Below, in pieces: positions 27,267 to 36,289 of a stretch of 64,000 nt of DNA. The notes under the pieces are model-generated. The model was given only the letters and a program-made list of their open reading frames with translations. It did not search any database and had not been told where the DNA came from. Every line of letters begins with the position of its first letter. Within the stretch, counting starts at the first letter, position 1. Made by a program: the position numbers and the translations under genes. This stretch comes from Craspedostauros australis (taxonomy: Eukaryota; Bacillariophyta; Bacillariophyceae; Mastogloiales; Achnanthaceae), in contig JAMXDE010000015.1 of the NCBI GenBank assembly GCA_026770025.1, positions 1,550,001 through 1,614,000 on the forward strand. The letters run 5' to 3'.

Positions 27267-27821
27267 GGGTCACTTCTAGACATAATTGACTGGTTGATAC
27301 AGCCGACCCATACGACTCCAGGGCATCATCCGCAGGAAGAAGACGGGACACACAGCGGGAATGCAAGCCATGTGCATCACCCCGCAATGGAGACCCAAAC
27401 TTAACGGTTATAACGGCCACACTAGGGCCACATCCCTAAGTAAGGACAATTCGAACCATGTGCGACAACGGCCATTTGATGGCAATGCGGAGCTCACAAA
27501 ATGATCGCCCGCGGCGACAAAATCGACACACAAACAAAAACTCAAAAACACGGAATGCGCTATCGATGACACCAATTGCAAACCCATCAGAGAAGATGCA
27601 ATCGGATAGTGAAGCCGGACCAAGACCCGCTTCGAGCAAATGAGAAACGAAGGAGGTCGAACACGAGGAGATTGAGGAGCCTGCAAGAGAAAGGAGAAAG
27701 AGAGAAGAGAAACAACAAGCAGAGAAGCGATGCGACAAGCAACAACCGAAACGCGCACAATTTGGAAAATACGAAAGAATTGTCACACTCCTCGCTTCGG
27801 ATAACGCTTCCTGCAACGCTT
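27267..27821 (+). repeat. Split direct repeat A1
   Basis: A 555-bp repeat starting GGGTCACTTCTAGAC at the left end of the element; its partner A2 lies at 35523-36077 at a constant offset of 8256 bp. Confidence 0.93.
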
Positions 27822-27898
27822 GCTCAGGGGTAACCTAGCAACAACACAACGCCTTCTACACCACTTCACGCCTTTCACCTTCTTCTTGAGTCCTCACC

Positions 27899-30172
27899 AT
27901 GACCGACCCACCCAATCTCTCCTCGCTTCTTGCGTCCGAGGCCTCCGCTTTCGCCAGTATGCCTCCGGCTGTGTCCGGGCCCGGGATCGCAGTCGAGACT
28001 GTATCCCCGGTAGCCAGCGGATCCGCCCACTCTGGTGATATGGGCAGCGACACTCTCCTCGACCAAGTCGGGATCGGGATGGCCATCGGACATGTCGTGG
28101 CTGACGACCGCATCTGCCTGGTCCGCCTCTCCTCCAAGTCGGAGGACGGCCACACTCTACTCTGTGCTAACTTGGCCAGCGAGTGCCGCCGCAGCAACCA
28201 CCATGCCCTTCGTCGCGACCCTGACCGCCGTGGACTCTCGGGAGTGTACCAATGCCTCGACACAACCACGCTTGGCGGAGCACCCCGACGCGATCTCATC
28301 GAGAGCAGCCACCAGAGCCGCGCCGCATACGACTCTACTCGTGCCGCCGCGCTCCGCGATCTCGAGGCTGTCGGCAAGATGGATATCACGGATGCCGCTG
28401 CCCGCAACGACAGCGACTCCAAAAGCGTCGGGGTGGTCGGATTCGACCTCGACACCAAGCCAGCAGGACGACCCGGCATCGATGTACAGCCGACGCCACC
28501 TGTCCGCATCAAGACCAACCCCGCTGGCCCACCACCGACCACCCAGCCAGTGGCATCCGGTCGCACACCCCCGGCCCCATTGATGCGCCCCGTCCCGGTC
28601 GTCTCCCGTCCGGTCCTCTCCTCCCAGCACGGAACACACTACTCTCCTCCTGCTCTGGCCACCACCGCAGCCGACGAACTCATGCATGTGGTGCGTCATC
28701 AGGCATCCCTCAACCGTGAAGCGATGGAGCTCCACCAACGCAAGTCAGAGGAGACCACACAAGCAATGTTGCGTGCACTGACGAATCAGCAGGCGCAAAT
28801 CACGCAACTGCTCCAACAGGGCCGTCCCTCCCCGAGTCTCGCTCCCGCACCTGCCCCAACCACGGACACTGAATGGTATGTGGCGATCGATGGACGACGC
28901 CCCGGGGTATACACCTCGGCGGCCGAGGCCATCGCTCAAGCAGGCACCGGAAGCACCGCCCGAGTTCTTCGGTGTGCTTCCTTCGCCGAAGCCGATGCCT
29001 ACCTCCGTGCTTCAGCGACAACCGCGCCCACCTACAGCCAGCCGACGTCACACGACCGTCCACACCCGGCAGGAGCGACACGCCCGGGAAACACACCCGC
29101 CGAGTCCCAAGCGGCGACGGCCTCTCTTCCAGATCGGGCCCCATCTGGCTCCACCAGTATGGGCATCGAACAGTTCCTGGGCGAAGACTCGTCCAAGGGC
29201 GACAAGAAACAGATCTTCGGCGAAGCCATCGACAACGAACAACGCATGCTCAAACACCTTGCCCCGCCACACGCAAGCCAAGAGATCCAGACTGAACTCG
29301 CTAAAGCCGCCATCGACGTCACCAGCCAACCAGGTAAGGTCACTGATGAACGCACATCCATCGAAGAACTCGCCTCCGCCTTCGGAGACATCCGCAACCA
29401 AACCGCTCGATCTGCCGGTCTCATCGCCGCCGACTCCAACTGGCGCACCAAGACTCGCCACGCTCTCGGCCGCATCAAGACCTCCAAAGACCTCAGCGAA
29501 CTCGCGGGTGACTTCAACAGCATCCGCGACGACGTGATGACCCGCTATCTCAATGATGTGGGTCACATTCTCCGCCACGGCTGCTACACCGATGAGCAAA
29601 TCATTCTCTACCAGCAAGGCAGAGGATGGGTCGCCGTCCTCAAGCTGTTCTTGACCTACTACCATGAACTCCTCCTCAAACTCCAAGAGGAAGCCTTCAA
29701 GACAGCCAACGGATGGGAGGACTCAGCCGAGGTGTACCTCGAACACTACGCCAAGGCTCTCTTCGACGCACGCAACTTCGCGTCCTCCCGCAATCTCATG
29801 ATCTTTCGCACATACATCATCGTACGCGAAGGAGCACGAGGCGGATGGTGCAACCTGAAGGTCCTGGAGAAATTCCAGCAGCGCGCAATCGGCACCCTCG
29901 GCCAATCCTCGGCAACGAAGGATGACACTGACACCGCTCCAACCAAAACAGGTCGGAAGAAGTGCAAGCACTGCGGAGGATCCAGCAAGGTCCATGAGAT
30001 CCGCGACAGCGGATGCCCGTTCGGGTATCTCTTCAAGAAGAAGGTGGCGATGGCGAAAGCCAAACAGGTCGCGAAATGTGTGAACCAAGGCGAGAAAGCC
30101 GCCGACGTTATCACCCGCATCCTGCAGGAAGCAATTGCGAAGCGCGGAGGCGGAGAAGAGGATGATGCCTAA
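27899..30172 (+). CDS. Tyrosine-recombinase element ORF1, Gag-like protein
   Basis: 757 residues from the ATG at 27899, 78 bp after repeat A1. The first 420 residues are rich in Pro, Thr, Ser and Ala with a Gln-rich helix (about residues 265-310). The second half is helical and capsid-like. Near the C-terminus comes a Cys/His cluster, CKHCGGSSKVHEIRDSGCPF, a plausible nucleic-acid-binding knuckle, followed by a Lys-rich tail. Position before the reverse transcriptase frame supports a Gag role; I recognise no closer family. Confidence 0.75.
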   Translation: MTDPPNLSSLLASEASAFASMPPAVSGPGIAVETVSPVASGSAHSGDMGSDTLLDQVGIGMAIGHVVADDRICLVRLSSKSEDGHTLLCANLASECRRSNHHALRRDPDRRGLSGVYQCLDTTTLGGAPRRDLIESSHQSRAAYDSTRAAALRDLEAVGKMDITDAAARNDSDSKSVGVVGFDLDTKPAGRPGIDVQPTPPVRIKTNPAGPPPTTQPVASGRTPPAPLMRPVPVVSRPVLSSQHGTHYSPPALATTAADELMHVVRHQASLNREAMELHQRKSEETTQAMLRALTNQQAQITQLLQQGRPSPSLAPAPAPTTDTEWYVAIDGRRPGVYTSAAEAIAQAGTGSTARVLRCASFAEADAYLRASATTAPTYSQPTSHDRPHPAGATRPGNTPAESQAATASLPDRAPSGSTSMGIEQFLGEDSSKGDKKQIFGEAIDNEQRMLKHLAPPHASQEIQTELAKAAIDVTSQPGKVTDERTSIEELASAFGDIRNQTARSAGLIAADSNWRTKTRHALGRIKTSKDLSELAGDFNSIRDDVMTRYLNDVGHILRHGCYTDEQIILYQQGRGWVAVLKLFLTYYHELLLKLQEEAFKTANGWEDSAEVYLEHYAKALFDARNFASSRNLMIFRTYIIVREGARGGWCNLKVLEKFQQRAIGTLGQSSATKDDTDTAPTKTGRKKCKHCGGSSKVHEIRDSGCPFGYLFKKKVAMAKAKQVAKCVNQGEKAADVITRILQEAIAKRGGGEEDDA

Positions 30173-30275
30173 CCTTGTGTTTTCTTTGTCTCTCTCTCTT
30201 CTCTGTGCTGCCTACAACTCGTGCCCACCTCAACGCCAACCAACAAACACCGACACCACCGACCATCCCAGACAT

Positions 30276-30421
30276 CACACACACACACACACACACACAC
30301 ACACACACACACACACACACACACACACACACACACACACACACACACACACACACACACACACACACACACACACACACACACACACACACACACACAC
30401 ACACACACACACACACACACC
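30276..30421. repeat. (CA)n microsatellite, about 146 bp
   Basis: A pure CA run of about 73 units between ORF1 and ORF2 of the tyrosine-recombinase element. Reading frames through it are artefacts of Thr-His or Cys-Val repetition. Confidence 0.98.
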
Positions 30422-30553
30422 GTCAATCTGGACGCCCCGAGCGACATACTACTAAGCTCTAACTTAGCAGATATCGTTGCATTATCCACGAAACAACTCC
30501 CCACGTCCTCTACCTGTTCACTGCGCTACGCGACACTGAACTTCGGTCTCCAC

Positions 30554-35269: not shown

Positions 35270-35339
35270 AGCCCTCTTTTTCCGCCACCTGTGACAAAAA
35301 CAGGGGGCACCGAGAGGAAGATACTCTCCCTCTGCCAGG

Positions 35340-35521
35340 GGGGATTCCAGCACTCTCCCTCCAACCAGGATCGAATCGGTCAACACCAACGCAAACAGCC
35401 GAGGCAGAGACCAGAGACGAACTTGGCTAGGAGGGATCGAGCCGGATGATCCAAGGCAAGCTTGGAGGTGCTAGTAACCCTACCACCCAACACAGACAAG
35501 CTATGTGTCTATTGGATTAGC
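35340..35521 (+). repeat. Split direct repeat B1
   Basis: A 182-bp repeat ending GTGTCTATTGGATTAGC, directly followed (one base) by repeat A2. Its partner B2 lies at 36108-36289. Confidence 0.92.
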
Positions 35522-35522
35522 T

Positions 35523-36077
35523 GGGTCACTTCTAGACATAATTGACTGGTTGATACAGCCGACCCATACGACTCCAGGGCATCATCCGCAGGAAGAAGAC
35601 GGGACACACAGCGGGAATGCAAGCCATGTGCATCACCCCGCAATGGAGACCCAAACTTAACGGTTATAACGGCCACACTAGGGCCACATCCCTAAGTAAG
35701 GACAATTCGAACCATGTGCGACAACGGCCATTTGATGGCAATGCGGAGCTCACAAAATGATCGCCCGCGGCGACAAAATCGACACACAAACAAAAACTCA
35801 AAAACACGGAATGCGCTATCGATGACACCAATTGCAAACCCATCAGAGAAGATGCAATCGGATAGTGAAGCCGGACCAAGACCCGCTTCGAGCAAATGAG
35901 AAACGAAGGAGGTCGAACACGAGGAGATTGAGTTGCCTGCAAGAGAAAGGGGAAAGAGAGAAGAGAAACAACAAGCAGAGAAGCGATGAGACAAGCAACA
36001 ACCGAAACGCGCACAATTTGGAAAAGACGAAAGAATTGTCACACTCCTCGCTTCGGATAACGCTTCCTGCAACGCTT
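35523..36077 (+). repeat. Split direct repeat A2
   Basis: The second 555-bp A copy. The B1-A2 join mimics the junction of a circular intermediate. Confidence 0.93.
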
Positions 36078-36107
36078 CAAATTTTTTAACCCACCTTCCC
36101 GCCCTTT

Positions 36108-36289
36108 GGGGATTCCAGCGCTCTCCCTCCAACCAGGATCGAATCGGTCAACACCAACGCAAACAGCCGAGGCAGAGACCAGAGACGAACTTGGCTAGGA
36201 GGGATCGAGCCGGATGATCCAAGGCAAGCTTGGAGGTGCTAGTAACCCTACCACCCAACGCAGACAAGCTATGTGTCTATTGGATTAGC
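36108..36289 (+). repeat. Split direct repeat B2
   Basis: The second 182-bp B copy and the right end of the tyrosine-recombinase element. Confidence 0.92.

Follow-up and report, generated by a model that had tools for sequence, protein, structure and literature searches.

A probable Ngaro-like tyrosine-recombinase retrotransposon family with full-length, single-unit and solo copies in the diatom Craspedostauros australis

Ngaro elements are tyrosine-recombinase (YR) retrotransposons described from zebrafish, fungi, the bicosoecid Cafeteria burkhardae (types 1-4) and the brown alga Ectocarpus (15 families). In the available parts of these sources, they have the order A1-[ORFs]-B1A2B2, with a Gag-like first open reading frame (ORF1), a reverse transcriptase (RT) and RNase H in ORF2, and a recombinase in ORF3 (PMC8547959, PMC12477816, PMC4157794). 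Solo AB repeats were described together with the Ngaro elements of Cafeteria (PMC8547959, accessible part). The PAT-like elements (Pat1, Toc and Kangaroo, and five Ectocarpus families; PMC12477816, in part) also contain split direct repeats. According to the passages available, split direct repeats without a methyltransferase define Ngaro, and those with one define PAT (PMC4157794, PMC3783388, PMC6681497, PMC9210276). For diatoms, 14 'DIRS' copies are tabulated for Phaeodactylum (PMC5859163), from which Crypton DNA transposons are also described (PMC3212892), and a 'Gypsy/DIRS1' share of 1.11% is given for Chaetoceros tenuissimus (PMC8613185). Among the titles listed in a literature search, mostly outside the subscription journals, none concerned a diatom element of the split-repeat YR type. 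Here, 64,000 nucleotides (nt) of Craspedostauros australis (the window; GCA_026770025.1, contig JAMXDE010000015.1, positions 1,550,001 to 1,614,000) were analysed. The window contains an element which is very likely a full-length, young and probably autonomous YR retrotransposon of the Ngaro-like type. The first-pass annotation had considered a new lineage; the results support a new family within a known kind of element.

The window element is arranged as A1-ORF1-ORF2-ORF3-B1-A2-B2 (Table 1). The two A repeats are identical at 550 of 555 positions (5 differences, 0.9%), and the two B repeats differ at 2 of 182 (1.1%; 99% identical). The first-pass annotation, made from the letters of the DNA without database searches, had claimed split direct repeats at these positions with about 1% divergence, and both claims are borne out; its 'nearly whole' was modest wording, as the unit is complete from end to end. 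All three ORFs are located between A1 and B1 on the + strand; the recombinase ORF is not inverted, unlike that of Kangaroo. The inverted terminal repeats and internal complementary region of DIRS1 were not found in the element, and no inverted repeats of at least 40 nt (seed 14) were detected within 26000-38000.

Copies of the element were searched in the whole genome (74.8 Mb, 90 contigs). All counts are lower bounds: the A repeat gave at least 35 matches, the B repeat at least 36, the recombinase at least 31, and the RT/RNase H query at least 39. A1, RT and recombinase were found together at 18 places, eight of which, including the window copy, keep the full A1-ORFs-B1A2B2 order. Because order and ends are identical at the seven other places, the arrangement is not due to chance; further A and B ends accompany the ORFs in other copies, so that the repeats are not unrelated to the ORFs, a possibility raised in the first-pass annotation. 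Within the eight full copies, A1 and A2 differ at 0-5 of 548 positions, and B1 and B2 by 0-3 substitutions in 182-183 positions, with 2 further gap columns in B of the C2 copy. Among the copies, the A repeat is up to about 23% different from that of the window, and the recombinase genes differ by up to 28.6% (0.5% for the closest copies). As the repeats are near-identical within a copy while the copies diverge, the repeats appear to be made alike at each round of transposition. The 22 5' flanks, 18 3' flanks and 5 additional stretches past the recombinase share only dispersed or simple repeats, plus the element's own 3' part among the latter five; thus, the copies are separate insertions.

The target pattern is AANC/T. 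Among 22 left ends (the 18 copies and four solo A-B copies), A is found at position -4 in 21 and at -3 in 19, and position -1 is C in 19 and T in three. The base to the right of B is C in 21 of 22 ends, in a sample that includes two B-only places (L074 and L075) and omits L037, where B is interrupted; the exception is L075, with the end set one base too far and the base T. The window copy is located 5' of a leucine-rich-repeat frame (23323-26772, - strand), and this upstream region has paralogues. The left and right flanks of the window copy meet at eight paralogous places, seven of which were fetched and aligned. In all seven, the flanks, when joined so that the shared C is present only once, align gap-free across the junction; two show a 1-nt gap about five bases upstream. 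When overlaps from -3 to 6 bases were compared, one base was best in six of seven, and the seventh (L085) gave 144 versus 145. Thus, the element is inserted without target duplication beyond one shared C. The one-base join excludes the usual duplications made by DDE integrases and by long interspersed nuclear elements (LINEs), and fits a tyrosine recombinase. For the solo copies, an empty paralogue of C8:1.16M shows an identical one-base join, although the base to the left of this solo is T, and C1:277k has a diverged empty site with an ambiguous join length. For the interrupted solo C2:1.598M, the search showed only a duplication, at C2:1.562M, of its left flank together with the initial 67 nt of A. 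No empty site was found for C14:776k in a flank search; the solo searches used 200-400 nt of flank and only the candidates with the best scores, so that absence is no proof. Two observations concern the neighbouring DNA of the window copy. The leucine-rich-repeat frame itself also has paralogues, and in its upstream region (26667-27266) the stretch at query positions 492-574 is present at 15 places with 79% identity, one of them less than 1 kb from a contig start. To the right of the element, 36415-36990 is a dispersed repeat of about 575 nt (more than 20 copies, 87-97% identity).

The coding content supports the same assignment. ORF2 matched Pfam RVT_1 with an E value of 9e-6 (25.9 bits, below the curated cut-off of 29.6); in the profile search of the genome, RVT_1 reached 29.7 bits, just above this cut-off. 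PDB profiles gave HIV-1 RT chains with E 0.003 and weaker, and the best PDB match (IDAa heavy chain, 5e-6) was located on a Thr-His repeat. This repeat is encoded, in frame, by a CA microsatellite (30276-30419). ORF2 contains motifs which we take to be those of RT and RNase H. These motifs, together with those of a C-terminal domain, are kept with few exceptions in ten aligned copies. In a BLAST comparison with seven proteins of the same genome, the RNase H part was closest to two relatives outside the family, L076 (36% identity, E 3e-15) and L068 (E 4e-13); the Pfam match of L076 itself is RT_RNaseH (0.0033, below its cut-off). The RT/RNase H ORF2 of the first-pass annotation is thus supported, the RT by RVT_1 and the RNase H by motifs and distant relatives. 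In scans with two short peptide patterns for each protein, no relatives of ORF2 or ORF3 were found in viral contigs, and in a scan with two such patterns none of ORF2 in bacterial or archaeal genomes. ORF1 is a putative Gag, as suggested by its position and its Cys/His-rich C-terminus; the predicted frame is present, and no Pfam family scored above its cut-off. Among 17 other A1 copies, ORF1 begins with M(T/S)xxPNLSxLLASE in 12 and with MSLNLSHLLASE in four, and in L035 the longest frame is different. In the window copy, ORF1 and ORF2 form one frame interrupted by a single stop.

ORF3 occupies the recombinase position on the same strand. In eleven aligned copies, the residues R385, K426, H520xxR523, H549xxW552 and Y565 are invariant or nearly so, and we assume that they form the R-K-HxxR-H/W-Y catalytic motif of tyrosine recombinases. 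ORF3 is also distantly related to L068 (E 2e-9 in pairwise comparison, 1e-4 when the genome was searched) and L076 (E 3e-5, pairwise); in the alignment, both relatives retain the LRxxE, K, RRG and RW positions. Purifying selection acts on both ORF2 and ORF3 (dN/dS, the ratio of nonsynonymous to synonymous substitution rates, 0.07-0.11). When the window copy was compared with five others, dN/dS was 0.065-0.076 for ORF2 codons 590-1188 and 0.074-0.112 for ORF3 codons 75-581; for ORF3 codons 1-74 it was above 1. Segment counts against three copies showed that constraint on the ORF3 frame starts between 33663 and 33739 (the end of ORF2) and persists past the first ATG (34023), and about 120 codons upstream of this ATG appear to be coding. 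Since the constraint begins before the first ATG, translation of ORF3 would involve splicing, a start codon other than ATG or a +1 frameshift out of ORF2. Premature recombinase stops in C36 and C60 were considered and rejected, as both are at codon 13 of the open frame, ahead of the constrained part.

Several results weigh against this assignment. ORF3 has no recombinase match in Pfam, PHROGs, NCBIfam or PDB profiles, and the PDB search gave only an antibody chain (E 0.42). When ORF3 is aligned with L068 and L076, the three do not share the His of HxxR, and their catalytic Tyr residues are not placed in a single column. Single-sequence structure predictions had mean pLDDT (predicted local distance difference test) values of 34.3 and 36.7, too low for a fold search. 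Thus, the tyrosine recombinase proposed in the first-pass annotation agrees with position, strand, motifs and distant same-genome relatives, and is not matched in the profile searches. The RNase H of the window ORF2 protein likewise had no match in Pfam, PHROGs, NCBIfam or PDB profiles. The RT part is weakly closest, among the seven proteins, to five of Ty3/gypsy type (28% over 110 amino acids (aa), E 4e-5), a label that reflects our reading of their motifs. The first-pass annotation had named grouping of the RT with long terminal repeat (LTR) elements or LINEs as a reason to abandon its reading; the RT does lean this way, and the RNase H is nearest to YR elements. As Ngaro RTs are noted to cluster with LTR elements (PMC4157794, available part), this weak leaning is no refutation. 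At the B/A junction, the base is T in the window copy rather than C. Recombinase core sites often have inverted arms; at the junction of C47, such arms were not significant (P 0.30 for matches, 0.07 for run length).

The copies occur in three shapes. Besides the eight full copies, ten of the 18 places have one A and one B only (single-unit); for C5:1.91M this class is inferred, with B pieces 24-32 kb beyond the recombinase. The third shape comprises the four solo A-B copies. The distance from A1 to A2 is 8.1-8.3 kb in five full copies and 16.0-16.6 kb in C47, C8 and C55, where roughly 8 kb of additional DNA is present between the two repeats. Left aside were C16, which has two A but neither a B nor a recombinase match, C63, with nothing but two recombinase stretches, the old broken copy C2:100k, fragments and the two B-only places. 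On the recombinase tree of the 18 copies, the full and single-unit forms require 6 changes, versus a shuffled mean of 6.18 (P 0.60). One inherited lineage of single-unit copies was therefore rejected, and the scattered shapes suggest that these forms arise again and again. The B of the interrupted solo copy contains a repeat of about 530 nt (L037, C2:1598778-1599313), which has more than 30 copies elsewhere at 89-94% identity.

It is quite possible that the single-unit and solo copies are deletions after insertion, produced by homologous recombination (B1 with B2, A1 with A2) in the manner of solo LTRs. The direct repeats are in place, and the scatter on the tree fits a repeated origin. However, ten of the 18 copies would need recombination across B repeats of only 182 nt, and these ten include C9, C31 and C35, which are 0.5-0.8% apart and all single-unit. 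This very young trio favours another reading, also quite conceivable, that both forms were inserted as such: either a two-junction circle was resolved into A-ORFs-B and A-B circles, or the RNA ended in B1 and not in B2. The three shapes have common termini and a common target pattern where the ends are seen. However, all three might derive from one source missing from the assembly, and the members of the second very young trio (C46, C5:477k and C8) are all full length.

In the proposed mechanism, an RNA running from A1 to B2 would be copied by the ORF2 RT/RNase H, and the internal B1A2 stretch would be the splint that joins the ends of the complementary DNA (cDNA), B2 to A1, into a circle. This splint role is the published model for split repeats. 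The ORF3 recombinase would then cross the B/A junction with a chromosomal AANC target, leaving no duplication beyond one shared base. Annealing between the repeats is mentioned in the available part of PMC6681497. We infer the RNA, the circle, the recombinase activity and the translation of ORF3 from the DNA. Tentatively, the full, single-unit and solo shapes might represent three circles, which the recombinase would generate by resolving a two-junction circular cDNA before integration. Single-unit copies were not mentioned in the accessible portions of the literature on such elements.

The first-pass annotation had called the element Ngaro/PAT-like. The YR retrotransposon kind holds; by the feature rule, the element is Ngaro-like, since no Dam or other methyltransferase was found (no Pfam match up to E 10 in 33008-33736, where the HMMER filters drop most matches above 0.1). 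A conserved domain of about 175 aa follows the RNase H, where the methyltransferase of DIRS and PAT elements would be. A PAT-like (DIRS group) element, with this domain as a divergent DNA N6-adenine methyltransferase, is rather unlikely. The W-P-P-P and V-x-x-P-R motifs of the domain are conserved in ten aligned copies and under selection; in L068 and L076, the W, V-x-x-x-P-R and one residue of the P run are retained, with PPP in L068 and not in L076. Against this reading, the fold prediction of the domain had no confidence, and the negative methyltransferase search applies here too. Finally, an LTR retrotransposon or LINE with rearranged repeats is most improbable and was rejected on repeat order and empty sites, as eight copies retain the A-B-A-B order and the two LTRs, DDE integrase and 4-6 bp duplication of LTR elements were not found (no Pfam match to integrase or protease up to E 1), the weak Ty3/gypsy leaning of the RT being the one point in its favour.

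Compared with described Ngaro elements, the window element shares the repeat order, the set of three ORFs (with ORF3 as putative recombinase), the lack of a detected methyltransferase and the solo AB repeats elsewhere in the genome. It is larger (9.0 kb, versus about 6 kb in Cafeteria), and PF00589 recognises the Cafeteria recombinases but not ORF3, as far as the accessible descriptions go. Amphibian elements have a hydrolase ORF after ORF3, for which 35187-35339 is too short. Ten of the 18 coding copies lack A2B2. VIPER of the kinetoplastid VIPER/TATE elements also has split direct repeats (PMC6681497, in part), compared here by repeat layout only.

A second YR family is present in the same genome (L077-L076-L078, C2:3,710,942-3,720,082, in region G000:C2:3709501-3723000). 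It has the A1-ORFs-B1A2B2 order with 100% identical A1/A2 (316 nt) and B1/B2 (392 nt), and B1 and A2 overlap by 3 nt. L076 contains RT, RNase H and a Cys-rich recombinase in the order of the window element, and a C-terminal domain of the same kind. However, identity to the window element is 27% in the RNase H and C-terminal domain and 17% in the recombinase, and the RT part was not aligned by BLAST with ORF2. A search with ORF2 510-1188 identified, outside the family, L068 on C25 and twelve matches of 29-34% identity in or near the RNase H; of these twelve, L076 was examined, and the other eleven may be copies of the L077-L076-L078 family. L068 (G000:C25:434734-438603), compared from just before the RNase H onward, belongs to a third, diverged YR element with a recombinase 36% identical to that of L076. 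Apart from these elements, the silicon-transporter family PF03842 gave 88 genome matches, 27 of them above 800 bits; some are clustered (four at C2 0.98-1.03 Mb, three on C61). These matches point to a diatom as the most likely host. The same search in 14 control genomes gave a match in one, under the cut-off.

Table 1. Features of the window element (window coordinates) and copies of its family.
Feature	Position	Strand	Remarks
Target bases left of A1	27263..27266	+	AATC; family pattern AANC/T
Whole element	27267..36289	+	9,023 nt, or 9,024 when a C at one of the ends is included; repeats, empty paralogous sites
A1 repeat	27267..27821	+	555 nt compared with A2
ORF1, putative Gag	27899..30172	+	757 aa counted from its ATG; Cys/His motif starts at 29963
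ORF2 open frame, stop to stop	30173..33739	+	RVT_1, ten-copy alignment, RNase H homology, dN/dS
(CA)72 microsatellite	30276..30419	+	144 nt; between ORF1 and first ATG of ORF2 frame (30554)
Presumed RT motifs	31985-32326	+	AVVDASKY, LPMGSSQSPA, AHCDD
Presumed RNase H motifs	32825-33211	+	FGDGSG, NWKEL, FTDNM, GTDGLSRG
ORF2 C-terminal domain		+	WAPPPEL at 33407, VLVPRV at 33494
ORF3 open frame, putative recombinase	33441..35186	+	
Constrained part of ORF3	33663..35186	+	N-terminal region rich in Cys/His, followed by the recombinase-like part; no ATG of the frame before 34023
B1 repeat	35340..35521	+	
B1/A2 junction base	35522	+	T in window copy, C in 7 other full copies
A2 repeat	35523..36077	+	one base separates it from B1
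B2 repeat, right end of element	36108..36289	+	next base 36290 is the shared C
Full copies			C13 (window), C47, C2:1.98M, C46, C5:477k, C8:2.38M, C55, C14:1.60M
Single-unit, unrelated DNA directly after B			C9, C31, C7, C19, C20, C36 (L041, L042, L044, L046, L048, L052)
Single-unit, 3' part interrupted by other DNA			C3, C35, C60, C5:1.91M
Solo A-B			C14:776k, C8:1.16M, C1:277k; interrupted C2:1.598M

These analyses place a multi-copy Ngaro-like family, with precise ends, a target rule and empty sites, in a diatom. The single-unit copies, as possible footprints of circular intermediates, may be the most useful part of the finding. If the three shapes do derive from three circles, the circular intermediate of a split-repeat retrotransposon would be recorded directly in the genome, and the single-unit copies would retain coding capacity yet lack a template for a B/A junction of their own. 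With full, single-unit and solo copies side by side, the circular-intermediate model becomes testable in one organism.

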